Part shown: positions 18,944 to 29,584 of the stretch, piece after piece
Layout of the letters: every line of letters starts with the position of its first letter
Numbering within the stretch: the first letter of the stretch is position 1
Assembly (NCBI RefSeq): GCF_025972045.1
Contig: NZ_JAPDHX010000002.1
Coordinates: 434,001 to 498,000, forward strand
Direction: 5' to 3'
Source of the DNA: Micropruina sonneratiae
GTDB taxonomy: Bacteria; Actinomycetota; Actinomycetes; Propionibacteriales; Propionibacteriaceae
Length of the DNA: 64,000 nt
Notes under the pieces: generated by a model
What the model was told of the DNA's origin: nothing
The model's input: the letters and a program-made list of their open reading frames with translations, nothing else
The model's database searches: none
Made by a program: the position numbers and the translations under genes

Positions 18944-20872
18944 CTAGGGGCGTGCGGCCGCGGCGGTGGTCGCCGGGTCGGCGGCGAGCACCACCTCGGT
19001 TGCGTACCGGGCCACCTGCTGCGCGGTCAACCCCAGGGCGGCGAGGATGCCGCTGCGCGAACCCTGGTCGATGAAGGCCTGGGGGACGCCGAACTCGCGG
19101 ACGGCGGCGGCGACTCCCGCCAGCCGGCACTCCTGCGCCAGCCGGGAGCCGAGTCCGCCGGCCAGCCCGCCGTCCTCGATCGTGATCGTCAGGTCGTGCT
19201 CGCCGGCCAACCGGATCAGGTCGGCGCTGACCGGCAGCGCCCACACCGGATCGACGACCCGGACGCCGATGCCCTGCCGGGCGAGCCGCCTGCCCACCTC
19301 GACGGCAAGCGTGGCGAACTGCCCCCAGCCCACGACGAGCACCGAGGGTCCGCCGTCCTCGAACAGCACGTCGACGTCGCCGTCGGTGCGCACCGCCGGT
19401 AGCGGGTCCGGCAGCGGGTCCTTGGAGTAGCGGATCATGCTCGGCGCGTCCGAGATGCCGACCGCCACGTCGAGCGCACGGGTCAGCCGCTGCTCATCGC
19501 GGGGCGCGGCCAGGTGCAGCCCCGGCACCAGGCCGGCCAGGGCCAGGTCCCACATGCCGTGGTGGCTGGGCCCGTCGGGACCGGTGATGCCGGCCCGGTC
19601 GAGCACGAAGGTGACGCCCTCGCCGTGCAGCGCGACGTCCATCAGCAACTGGTCGAAGGCGCGGTTGAGGAAGGTGGCGTACAACGCCACGACCGGGTGC
19701 AGTCCGGCGCGAGCCAGCCCCGCCGCCGACGCGACCGCGTGCTGCTCGGCGATGCCGACGTCGAAGGTGCGGTGCGGGAAGTGCCGGGCGAAACGGGCCA
19801 GGCCCGTCGGGTGCAGCATCGCCGCGGTGATCGCCACTACCCGGTCGTCGGTGGCGCCGATCCTGGCCAGATGCTCGCCGAAGGCGTCCGTCCAGGTGCG
19901 CCGGGTGGAGGCCGCAAGCGGCTCGCCGGTGATCTCGTCGATGGGTCCCACCGCGTGGAAGCGGTCCTCCTCGTTGTTCTCAGCTGCCGCGAAGCCGCGT
20001 CCCTTCTGGGTGACGCAGTGCACGATGACCGGCCCTCCGGTGAACTGCCGGGCCTGTTCGAGCGCGAACTCGAGCGCGGTCAGGTCGTGACCGTCGATCG
20101 GCCCCAGGTACTTGATGCCCAGGTCGGAGTACATGCCCTGCGGCGCGAAGACGTCCTTGACGCCCGCCTTCACCCCGTGCAGGACGTCGTAGGCCGATTC
20201 TCCGACCACCGGGGCCCGGCTGACCCAGCGCTTGATCGCAGCCAGCGAGCGTTCGTAGCGCCGGTCGGTGCGAATCGAGGAGAGTTGCTGGCCCAGGCCC
20301 TTCAGCCGGCTGGCGATGCCGCCGATGGTGGGCGTGTACGAGCGGCCGTTGTCGTTGACGACGATGACCAGCCGCAGGTCTGGCTCGACGGCGATGTTGT
20401 TCAGTGCCTCCCAGGTCATGCCGCCGGTGAGGGAGCCGTCGCCGACCACGGCCACGACGGTGCGCTCCTCGTCGCGCAGCGCGAATCCCCTGGCCAGGCC
20501 CTCTGCCCAGGACAGCGACGACGACGCGTGTGAACTCTCCACCCAGTCGTGCTCGGATTCGGCCCGGCTCGGGTAACCGGACAGCCCGCCCGGCTGGCGC
20601 AGCGTGTCGAAGCGGTCGCGGCGTCCGGTCAGGATCTTGTGCACGTAGCTCTGGTGGCCGGTGTCGAAGATGATCGGATCCCGCGGCGAGTCGAACACCC
20701 GGTGCAGCGCGATGGTCAGTTCGACCGCGCCCAGATTCGGGCCGAGGTGCCCGCCGGTGCGGGACACGTGGGCGACCAGGAAACCGCGGATCTCGGCGGC
20801 GAGGCCGACGAGCTCGTCGTCGGTCAGGTCGTGCAGGTCGCGGGGGTGGTTGATGCGGTCCAGCAACGGCAT
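18944..20872 (-). CDS. dxs: 1-deoxy-D-xylulose-5-phosphate synthase
   Basis: 642 residues, a full-length DXS. It condenses pyruvate and glyceraldehyde 3-phosphate in the first step of the MEP isoprenoid pathway. Seen: thiamine diphosphate binding VVAVVGDGSLTGGMTWEALN, SSHASSSLSWAEGLARG, PFIVHC-like segment PVIVHCVTQKGRGFAAAE, the transketolase Pyr domain with VGIAEQHAVASAAGLA and HGMWDLALAG, and the C-terminal domain GWGQFATLAVEVGRRLA. The start ATG 20872 is preceded by TAGACT-GCACGCC rather than a ribosome binding site, so it is probably leaderless. It stands alone, divergent from the VOC gene. Confidence 0.97.
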   Translation of the reverse strand: MPLLDRINHPRDLHDLTDDELVGLAAEIRGFLVAHVSRTGGHLGPNLGAVELTIALHRVFDSPRDPIIFDTGHQSYVHKILTGRRDRFDTLRQPGGLSGYPSRAESEHDWVESSHASSSLSWAEGLARGFALRDEERTVVAVVGDGSLTGGMTWEALNNIAVEPDLRLVIVVNDNGRSYTPTIGGIASRLKGLGQQLSSIRTDRRYERSLAAIKRWVSRAPVVGESAYDVLHGVKAGVKDVFAPQGMYSDLGIKYLGPIDGHDLTALEFALEQARQFTGGPVIVHCVTQKGRGFAAAENNEEDRFHAVGPIDEITGEPLAASTRRTWTDAFGEHLARIGATDDRVVAITAAMLHPTGLARFARHFPHRTFDVGIAEQHAVASAAGLARAGLHPVVALYATFLNRAFDQLLMDVALHGEGVTFVLDRAGITGPDGPSHHGMWDLALAGLVPGLHLAAPRDEQRLTRALDVAVGISDAPSMIRYSKDPLPDPLPAVRTDGDVDVLFEDGGPSVLVVGWGQFATLAVEVGRRLARQGIGVRVVDPVWALPVSADLIRLAGEHDLTITIEDGGLAGGLGSRLAQECRLAGVAAAVREFGVPQAFIDQGSRSGILAALGLTAQQVARYATEVVLAADPATTAAAARP

Positions 20873-20938: not shown

Positions 20939-21301
20939 ATGGACAGCGAACCGGAGGTCGGGATCGTCATCGTGCTCGATTCGATCGATCCCGCACGGCT
21001 GGCGGGGTTCTGGGCCGAAGCGCTGCGCTACCGCCGCCTCGACGACGTCGAGCAGTACGCGGTGCTGCTGCCGCGGCAGGGGGCGTCCGGCCCGATGCTG
21101 CTGATCCAGGGCGTCGGCGAACCCAAGCAGGGCAAGAACCGGATGCACCTCGACCTGCACGTGCCGGACGTCGCCGCCGAGGTCGACCGGCTCGTCGCCC
21201 TGGGCGCCTCGCGGGTCGGCGAAGGTGTGATCGGCGATACGATCAGCTGGGTCCGGATGCTCGACCCCGAGGGCAACGAGTTCGACCTCGCCCCGATCTG
21301 A
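20939..21301 (+). CDS. VOC/glyoxalase-like domain protein
   Basis: 120 residues from ATG 20939, with AGGGTGG upstream. A single VOC module pair is seen: VIVLDSIDPARLAGFWAEAL at the first strand and helix, KNRMHLDLHVPDVAAEVDRL at the second half, and WVRMLDPEGNEFDLAP at the end, where Glu/Asp would hold a metal. This is the actinobacterial Glyoxalase_6-like group, whose substrate is not known. It runs convergently toward the SOS-boxed gene, whose stop lies 18 bp beyond its own. Confidence 0.85.
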   Translation: MDSEPEVGIVIVLDSIDPARLAGFWAEALRYRRLDDVEQYAVLLPRQGASGPMLLIQGVGEPKQGKNRMHLDLHVPDVAAEVDRLVALGASRVGEGVIGDTISWVRMLDPEGNEFDLAPI

Positions 21302-21319: not shown

Positions 21320-21733
21320 TCAGAGCCGGCGCACCCAGTTCTTCCCGCGCAACGCCTCTTCGACCAACCCCACCTCGCGGTGCAGCCTGGCCAGCGCCGC
21401 CTGTTGCTGCGACCACACCTCGACCGCGTCGCTGACCACCTCGGGCGGCACCTGTTCGGTCAGGCTGACCCGGACGCCGGCCAGCCCCTCGCGGCTGGCC
21501 TGCACCTGCGCATCGACGAACACCGCCGCGAACCGCGCCAGCACCACCGGGTGCCGGCGCAGCAACGGGTAGCGGCGATAGTCGGCCGGGCAGCAGTCGA
21601 GCAGGAACTCGGTCGCGGTCAGTTCCCAGTCGGGCGCCCCCGGTGGCCGCACCCGCTCGGGCCACCCGGGCGGCACGTAGATGCTGGACTGTCGCTCCTG
21701 CATCGCCCTGCGACGATCCGCCAGTGACGCCAT
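21320..21733 (-). CDS. conserved actinobacterial protein of unknown function under a LexA-type SOS box
   Basis: 137 residues, soluble, with no recognised domain. Visible features: ADRRRAMQERQSSIYVPPGW, a segment DWELTATEFLLDCCPADYRR with a Cys-Cys pair, LRRHPVVLARFAAVFVDAQ and a helical C-terminus (HREVGLVEEALRGKNWVRRL). Similar sequences are, as I recall, widespread hypotheticals in Actinobacteria. ATG 21733 follows AAGGGGGTAGGG. Directly upstream a TAGAAT -10 element overlaps a perfect TCGAAC-N4-GTTCGA site, so expression is almost certainly induced by DNA damage. A role in the SOS response is inferred from that site alone. Confidence 0.75.
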   Translation of the reverse strand: MASLADRRRAMQERQSSIYVPPGWPERVRPPGAPDWELTATEFLLDCCPADYRRYPLLRRHPVVLARFAAVFVDAQVQASREGLAGVRVSLTEQVPPEVVSDAVEVWSQQQAALARLHREVGLVEEALRGKNWVRRL

Positions 21734-21748
21734 CCCTACCCCCTTGGA

Positions 21749-21764
21749 TCGAACGTTTGTTCGA
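21749..21764. promoter_or_regulatory. LexA-binding SOS box
   Basis: TCGAACGTTTGTTCGA is an exact match to the actinobacterial/Bacillus-type SOS box TCGAAC-N4-GTTCGA. It touches the -10 element TAGAAT (minus strand, 21769-21764) of the 137-residue gene, so bound LexA would block RNA polymerase. Confidence 0.85.
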
Positions 21765-21917
21765 TTCTAGGCCATAGCCGGACGCCGGTCCAGACCGGTC
21801 CGAATCTCCGCCCCACCCACCCGGCGCCCCGACACGGTCAGCCGCAGGTCGAGGTTTGCGGGACCGGCCGGGGTGGGTCGTGATAGACACTGTGCACCCC
21901 ACACGAAGGAGTGTTCG

Positions 21918-23297
21918 ATGGACGACTGGGTACAGACTCTCGGCGCCGGCCCCCTGCTCGGTATCGCAGCCGGCGCGATCGCCGTCCTGCTCGTGCTGGT
22001 CATCACCCTGAAGATGCACGCTTTTCTGGCATTGATCCTGGTCAGCCTGCTGACCGCGCTGGCCACCGGCATACCGACCAACCAGATCGTGCCGACCATG
22101 GTCAGTTCCTTCGGCAGCACACTCGGCTCGGTCGCCCTGCTGGTCGGTCTGGGCGCGATGCTCGGCAAGCTGGTCGAATACTCGGGCGGCGCCCAGGTGA
22201 TGGCTGAACGACTCGTCTCCATCTTCGGTGAGAAGCGGGCCCCGTTCGCGCTCGGCATCGCCTCGCTGATCATGGGCTTCCCGATGTTCTTCGACGCCGG
22301 CCTGGTCGTCATGCTGCCGATCATCTTCGCGATCGCGAAGCGGCTGAACGGGCCGGTGCTGCTCTACGGCATCCCGGCCGCCGCCGCGTTCTCGGTGATG
22401 CACGTCTTCCTGCCGCCCCACCCCGGACCGGTCACCGCCACCGAGCTGTACGGCGCCAACCTCGGGCTGGTGCTGCTGATCGGCCTGCTGGTCGCGCTGC
22501 CCACCTGGTACGTGTCCGGCTACCTGTGGGGCATCCAGGTCGCCAAGCGGCACAGCTTCACCCTGACCGAGGGCCTGTTCGGCGACGCCGATCCCGACGA
22601 GGTCAAGGAACCGCCGTCGGTCGGCACCGTGATCGGCATCCTGCTGATCCCGCTGCTGCTGATCTTCCTCAACACGGGACTGGACTTCGTCCGGGCCAGC
22701 GGCTGGGCCGACAAGTCCGCGACCTGGTTCCAGGTGCTCAGCATGCTGGGCACCGCGCCCGTCGCCCTGCTGGTGGCGGTGCTGGTCGCCTCCTTCGTGC
22801 TCGGCCTGCGCCGCGGCGAGAAGGGCACCGCGCTGGAGAAGATCGTCGACAGCGCCCTGGGCCCGATCTGCTCGGTGGTGCTGATCACCGGCGCCGGCGG
22901 CATGTTCGGCGGCGTGCTGCGCACCTCCGGCATCGGTGACGCGCTGAAGGATTCGATGTCCGACCTGGGACTGCCCGTGATCGTGGCCGCCTACCTCGTG
23001 TCGGTGGTGCTGCGACTCGCCCAGGGCTCGGCGACCGTCGCGCTGGTCACCACCGCCGGCCTGATGGCTCCGGCCGTGGCCGCCGGCGGCTACTCCGCGG
23101 TCGACATCGTCTGCATCACCCTGGCCACCGCTGCCGGTTCGGTGTTCGCCAGCCACGTCAACGACTCGGGATTCTGGCTTGTCGGACGCCTGATGGGCAT
23201 GGACGTCGCCACCACCTTGAAGACCTGGACGATCCAGCAGGCCATCGAGTCGGTGATGGCCTTCCTGATCGTGCTGGCGGTCTTCGTCGTCCTCTAG
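21918..23297 (+). CDS. gntP: GntP-family gluconate/H+ symporter
   Basis: 459 residues with about 12-14 membrane segments. Family hallmarks: SFGSTLGSVALLVGLGAMLGK, FALGIASLIMGFPMFFDAGLV, FLPPHPGPVTATELYGANLG and the C-terminal FASHVNDSGFWLVGRLMGMD. It imports gluconate or a related sugar acid with protons. ATG 21918 has AAGGAG seven bases upstream. No gluconate kinase is adjacent; an FGGY kinase at 51956-53479 is the nearest candidate and is distant. Transcription probably starts near the TAGACACT stretch around 21885. Confidence 0.93.
   Translation: MDDWVQTLGAGPLLGIAAGAIAVLLVLVITLKMHAFLALILVSLLTALATGIPTNQIVPTMVSSFGSTLGSVALLVGLGAMLGKLVEYSGGAQVMAERLVSIFGEKRAPFALGIASLIMGFPMFFDAGLVVMLPIIFAIAKRLNGPVLLYGIPAAAAFSVMHVFLPPHPGPVTATELYGANLGLVLLIGLLVALPTWYVSGYLWGIQVAKRHSFTLTEGLFGDADPDEVKEPPSVGTVIGILLIPLLLIFLNTGLDFVRASGWADKSATWFQVLSMLGTAPVALLVAVLVASFVLGLRRGEKGTALEKIVDSALGPICSVVLITGAGGMFGGVLRTSGIGDALKDSMSDLGLPVIVAAYLVSVVLRLAQGSATVALVTTAGLMAPAVAAGGYSAVDIVCITLATAAGSVFASHVNDSGFWLVGRLMGMDVATTLKTWTIQQAIESVMAFLIVLAVFVVL

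Positions 23298-26926: not shown

Positions 26927-26927
<1 letters not shown>
26220..26927 (-). CDS. membrane protein with Ala/Lys-rich N-terminal tail
   Basis: 235 residues. Residues 1-85 are basic and low-complexity (runs of Ala, Lys, Ser, such as ATAKKSPAKASAPAG), then five hydrophobic segments follow (VAWSMLAGLAALIGTGLVLA, VGWMVLVGGVSYVLALLG, IGGLGIWFWVAYLIGFAPLA, WTALAVLPALAG, IVLIVLAVLAVATAVWWFVF). The tail resembles nucleoid- or RNA-binding low-complexity arms and would face the cytoplasm. GTG 26927 shares one base with the acnA TAG, so translation is coupled to aconitase. No family assignment. A long hairpin ends the unit. Confidence 0.7.

Positions 26928-29584
<2,657 letters not shown>

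Follow-up and report, generated by a model that had tools for sequence, protein, structure and literature searches.

Why should a small gene without a recognisable domain lie directly behind a perfect LexA-type operator, far from the familiar SOS genes? The question is raised by a locus in the window, that is, the whole stretch of 64,000 nucleotides of Micropruina sonneratiae analysed here (contig NZ_JAPDHX010000002.1, positions 434,001 to 498,000). On its minus strand, a gene for a protein of 137 residues is preceded by the exact palindrome TCGAAC-N4-GTTCGA (TCGAACGTTTGTTCGA, spacer AAAC), a predicted LexA box whose pattern we take to be the actinobacterial LexA consensus. The features of the locus, with what each rests on, are as follows:

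18944-20872, minus strand: presumably dxs, the downstream neighbour conserved in relatives; here a convergent gene (about 20939-21301) lies between (sequence)
21320-21733, minus strand: gene of the 137-residue orphan protein, ATG at 21733-21731, TGA at 21322-21320 (open reading frame, profile searches, homologues; dN/dS 0.36 against the Micropruina glycogenica copy)
21737-21743, minus strand: putative ribosome-binding stretch, purine-rich, GGGGGTA (sequence)
21749-21764, palindromic, no strand: exact LexA box TCGAAC-N4-GTTCGA (sequence, genome count, comparison of homologues)
21764-21769, minus strand: -10 element TAGAAT (sequence; TANNNT at the same offset in 21 of 40 boxed Propionibacteriaceae promoters)
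21787-21792, minus strand: weak -35 element TGGACC, 17-nt spacer (sequence; position of TTGMC in relatives)
26927-29584, minus strand: presumably acnA (aconitase), the upstream neighbour conserved in relatives; here about 5 kb away (sequence)

The predicted operator and promoter of the window gene

Read along the minus strand, the region runs from TGGACC through 17 nt to TAGAAT (21769-21764), the palindrome, 15 nt that include the purine-rich stretch and GGGGGTAGGG, and the ATG. An earlier note, made from the DNA letters, had described a perfect SOS box overlapping a TAGAAT -10 element directly before a 137-residue gene with no known domain, had equated the box with the actinobacterial LexA consensus and had placed the gene away from lexA, recA or a polymerase gene. 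All of this held: the match is exact, box and -10 share one base so that a LexA-type operator overlaps the promoter, and the distances from the box to lexA and recA, which lie on the same contig beyond the window, are about 66 kb and 83 kb. The LexA boxes that the S. venezuelae study tabulates agree with the same pattern (PMC9380542).

The exact box occurs once in the whole window. A first-order Markov model predicts 0.003 occurrences per window, 0.000008 per 150 nt and 0.18 per genome. When up to two mismatches were allowed, 14 matches were found in the window against 2.77 expected from shuffles. One two-mismatch sequence of this kind (21903-21918) overlaps the start of a divergent gene, presumably for a GntP-type permease, and is probably a chance occurrence.

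From this arrangement, which is conserved in relatives as described below, we infer LexA control of the window gene. LexA bound to the palindromic operator, over the -10 and the presumed transcription start, would block the sigma-A RNA polymerase; RecA on single-stranded DNA would then provoke self-cleavage of LexA, and the gene would be derepressed. Co-transcription with dxs in the window was rejected because of the convergent gene between them, and the SOS unit is therefore taken here as a single gene.

Distribution of the box in the genome and among homologues

The genome contains seven exact boxes, compared with 0.18 expected; when one mismatch is allowed the count is 54, compared with 9 for the reversed pattern. 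Three of the seven occupy promoters, namely those of the dnaE2-dinP operon, the lexA intergenic region and the 137-residue gene; the remaining four fall in apparent coding sequence, including two that lie within copies of a single repeated element. Of the 47 one-mismatch sites 26 were inspected, and most of these are also inside apparent coding sequence; boxes of this class were found at recA and dnaB. The genome encodes both LexA and RecA, lexA carrying an exact box and recA a one-mismatch box. In the dnaE2-dinP operon (L205:4108-9862, G000:C1, outside the window) the exact box is 3 nt before the first ATG, and the genes encode, in order, DUF6504, HEPN_SAV_6107, a DNA polymerase III alpha-type protein and a Y-family polymerase; by its context in this DUF6504-headed operon, the alpha-type protein is DnaE2.

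The operator type is that of the recA, lexA-2 and dnaE2 boxes of S. venezuelae, where dnaE2-dinP is under LexA, as its box suggests here (PMC9380542). In contrast, the accessible part of that regulon description includes no recognisable homologue of the 137-residue gene (PMC9380542). The nearest parallels in the present genome are the two small proteins of the dnaE2 operon, which are also little known and lie behind the same exact box, but DUF6504 and HEPN_SAV_6107 are both Pfam families, whereas the 137-residue protein matches neither and its gene stands alone.

Two other sites outside the window deserve mention. One exact box is shared by lexA and a divergent gene for a protein of 122 residues (L206:1661-2057, G000:C10), which gave no Pfam match, shows one hydrophobic stretch by eye and is possibly division-inhibitor-like. 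The other, TCGAACTTTTGTACGA (L208:2001-2016, G000:C13), is a LexA-like box with one mismatch ahead of the gene for the replicative helicase DnaB, at a distance of 56-95 nt depending on the start codon chosen.

Homologues of the gene were detected in 57 of 97 Propionibacteriaceae genomes (family f1), or 47 of the 78 near-complete ones, leaving 40 (31 near-complete) in which none was detected. The named relatives are Micropruina glycogenica, with 81% identity, followed by Granulicoccus, Propionicicella, Nigerium, Brooklawnia and Auraticoccus, plus MAGs (13 loci). Across the class, 118 of 296 sampled genomes carry a homologue; in a sample of 198 genomes from the phylum there were nine matches, all within the window's class, and none was found outside it. 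A tree of 163 proteins requires 28 family-label changes for 28 family groups, the minimum being 27, and thus tracks the family labels almost perfectly, so that inheritance, as judged from these sequences, is mainly vertical.

We then compared 165 homologous loci, comprising the 57 from Propionibacteriaceae and 108 of 116 further genomes of the class (a few regions at contig edges being short), and took for each the best box in a region that began 260 nt upstream and reached 10 nt into the conserved start region. At a limit of one mismatch, a box precedes 40 of the 57 Propionibacteriaceae genes (31 exact), 13 of 14 in family f2 (all 13 exact), 20 of 23 in f18 (6 exact) and 3 of 5 in f34 (2 exact). 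Pooled, these are 76 of 99 promoters, whereas control windows taken from the same loci reached this limit in 6 of 4238 cases; no p value is attached to these counts because related promoters are not independent. In f18, which we guess to be the Pseudonocardiaceae, all 23 loci have a box when two mismatches are allowed. None of the 66 homologues in the other families reaches the one-mismatch limit, the best sites all having at least three mismatches. These include the 15 loci of f20, inferred to be Streptomycetaceae, in each of which the box is absent, a difference from the window gene.

The 17 Propionibacteriaceae loci that missed the threshold divide into 10 with two mismatches and 7 with three or more, and include one in which the gene is in two pieces (L085), one with an N in the promoter (L042) and one with a variant box just beyond the 260 nt (L065). 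By eye, most two-mismatch sites sit at the expected box position. The expectation from the earlier note that homologues would carry the box was therefore borne out in the window's family and three others, where placement of the predicted operator and promoter is conserved, and failed elsewhere: with 17 of 57 Propionibacteriaceae homologues and all 66 from other families lacking a box at this threshold, the predicted LexA control is not universal. Its proposal of a DNA-damage response gene gains support from the conserved box and from the same consensus at lexA, dnaE2 and, with one mismatch, recA.

In genus g22 (L225, L226 and L228), the site before the gene reads ACGAAC-N4-GTACGA in all three genomes searched. 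Only two further copies of this sequence occur in the three genomes, both in one of them, and the site may represent operator drift, which would make it a candidate LexA site.

A possible second damage regulator

The mycobacterial PafBC/RecA-NDp promoter has the form tTGTCRgtg-8 nt-TannnT (PMC5656591), and PafBC is activated by single-stranded DNA (PMC11804915). No promoter of this type (TTGTCRGTG-N8-TANNNT), looked for as TGTCR with an N8-spaced -10, was found in the 300 nt upstream of the window gene (row L029), but this geometry does occur before some homologues, as in the mycobacterial regulon (PMC5656591, PMC11804915). In Propionibacteriaceae, 18 of 51 TGTCR sites are followed at the N8 spacing by a -10-like hexamer, compared with 0-4 at each of the other 24 spacings; in families other than f1, f2 and f18 the figure is 9 of 41 (0-3 at 24 others), and in f2 and f18 together 1 of 20. 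A stricter TGTCR-N8 pattern, chosen post hoc after the sequences had been seen, was found in 21 of 165 upstream regions and in 12 of 3258 control windows. Several of the N8-spaced -10s read CAYACT and not TANNNT, which departs from the published promoter (PMC5656591). All 97 Propionibacteriaceae genomes matched the PafC HTH domain, 94 of them above the cut-off; hits to this domain also came from 5 of 14 control genomes. The geometry is missing from the 15 rows of f20, in line with the S. venezuelae report, in which a first search for the PafBC motif did not show it to be conserved (PMC9380542).

By loose criteria, the 163 rows divide into 65 with the LexA box only, 14 with the PafBC geometry only, 10 with both and 74 with neither, and some relatives may be under PafBC-type damage control. 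Family f34 is split: the LexA box precedes the gene in three members, the PafBC geometry in the other two. It would seem, then, that the orthologues of a single gene answer to different DNA-damage regulators, some to LexA and others to PafBC.

The promoters with a LexA box also differ in layout. In 21 of the 40 boxed Propionibacteriaceae promoters a TANNNT -10 starts 5 nt before the box and a leader follows; TTGMC starts 28 nt before the box in 9 of the 40 rows, as in the window, and 29 nt before it in 3. In f2 and f18 the TANNNT candidates start 16-26 nt after the box start, near the start codon; most of these promoters thus have a leaderless appearance, and in them the box precedes the -10. 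The difference between the two layouts is a hint that LexA control arose more than once, a moved box being the alternative. Taken with the split in f34, the placement of the operator over the -10 in Propionibacteriaceae but ahead of it in f2 and f18 suggests that the gene was recruited on separate occasions. By parsimony, the LexA state changes 17 times and the PafBC state 14 times on the tree, which was built on few columns and cannot separate gain from loss.

What sets the family apart is that two independent damage regulators converge on one protein. It is accordingly a strong candidate for a repair or checkpoint factor still missing from the known set, and a compact case for gene movement between the LexA and PafBC regulons. 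In S. venezuelae most of the genes at LexA sites lack a known function (PMC9380542), hence a means of ranking them is useful. The comparisons support placing the 137-residue protein, as a predicted new orphan member, in the actinobacterial DNA-damage regulons, and the gene very probably has an overlooked place in the bacterial DNA-damage response. More tentatively, and with somewhat less than even confidence, we propose an undescribed actinobacterial DNA-damage family with a repair or tolerance role beyond the known factors and with orthologues that came, on repeated occasions, under LexA, PafBC or both.

The protein and its possible roles

Searches of Pfam, NCBIfam and PADLOC with the 137-residue protein gave no match at E values up to 10, with HMMER filters that discard weak matches, and PHROGs returned only matches at E 0.12-0.14. 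No solved chain matched the family profile better than E 0.096, and the best Pfam match among 18 family members was RecX_HTH2 in one of them (E 0.014), which is at chance level. Across 163 family sequences W24, P25, P49 and L65 are essentially invariant, the first two forming a WP motif, and D46, R53, R60, R88 and L91 are kept in at least 87%. The structure prediction proposed earlier, run with AlphaFold2 on 13 sequences, gave a helical model (pLDDT 84, pTM 0.73) with a low-confidence helix at 4-13, an extended PPGWP segment, a helix at 36-47 and long helices at 62-91 and 97-136. Foldseek comparison of the model with PDB and viral structures yielded no match at E below 0.001; the best VIA-align hit, a designed helical protein, had a Z of 8.7, in the usual range for helical hairpins. 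Searches for a known domain or fold, by Pfam, NCBIfam, PHROGs, PADLOC, PDB sequences, Foldseek against PDB and viral structures, and VIA-align, produced nothing convincing. The protein is small, probably soluble and predicted to be all-helical, its model consisting of a PPGWP...PPG N-terminal segment, a short helix and a long helical hairpin; no long hydrophobic stretch is visible by eye, nor is an evident catalytic pattern. We found no description of the gene in the open-access literature, where it has no name to search by.

We lean, by a modest measure of confidence, towards an SOS regulon member that combines LexA control with an accessory or adaptor role in DNA repair or damage tolerance. 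The role itself is the more conjectural part: the searches yielded neither a domain nor a fold match that would favour a repair function, and no shared operon with a repair gene was found. In many families without the box, the start codon by eye abuts or nearly abuts a preceding aconitase- or RNA-methyltransferase-like gene, and this abutment to housekeeping-like genes fits a useful, non-toxic protein.

The same abutment can be read differently. The protein could be a housekeeping factor tied to acnA and dxs, for example in Fe-S or isoprenoid metabolism; damage control would then have been added to it in some lineages. Among 107 loci long enough for a neighbourhood test, 27 are from Propionibacteriaceae, and of these 25 have dxs downstream, 23 acnA upstream and 21 both; dxs is mostly within 130 nt (mechanical starts), once at 2.5 kb, and the acnA and dxs pair also surrounds the gene in several other families. 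This would speak for a metabolic tie, yet dxs or acnA is nearby in none of 38 loci of f18 and f20, and in f18 (0 of 23) the gene nevertheless has a box with at most two mismatches throughout. For a protein assisting two core enzymes, it would also be surprising that no homologue was detected in so many Propionibacteriaceae genomes. We consider such a housekeeping factor unlikely.

Less probable still, in our judgement, is a damage-induced checkpoint factor of division or growth, which LexA would release so that division pauses. SulA, DivS and ChiZ are SOS division inhibitors, and small orphan proteins under LexA control often have this function. The 137-residue protein resembles these three in being small and, as its box predicts, LexA-controlled, but no shared domain was found and the genomic setting is another. 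Room for such a factor is left by Streptomyces, for which the S. venezuelae report describes no clear homologues of known division inhibitors (PMC9380542). On the other side, close abutment to a housekeeping-like gene in so many boxless families favours constitutive expression over a toxic inhibitor, and the mainly vertical inheritance, the residues invariant across the family and the lack of a LysM-like domain or long hydrophobic stretch also argue against it.

Finally, that the box is a chance match or the site of another regulator is highly improbable: four of the seven exact genome matches do lie inside apparent coding sequence, but chance was rejected on the strength of the control windows and the Markov estimate, and the same consensus stands at lexA, dnaE2 and, with one mismatch, recA.

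Ku and the gene occur together in 50 of the 97 Propionibacteriaceae genomes; 7 have the gene only, 8 Ku only and 32 neither, which gives an odds ratio of 28.6 and, within genera, a chi-square of 5.1. P450, a size-linked control, gave an odds ratio of 5.2. Class-wide the corresponding counts are 89, 29, 134 and 44, with an odds ratio of 1.0 and no association. A partnership with Ku in NHEJ was dropped because the tie seen in Propionibacteriaceae is absent class-wide and the P450 control is itself at 5.2. DUF6504, taken as the marker of the dnaE2 operon, co-occurred with the gene at an odds ratio of 6.0 and a within-genus chi-square of 0.45.
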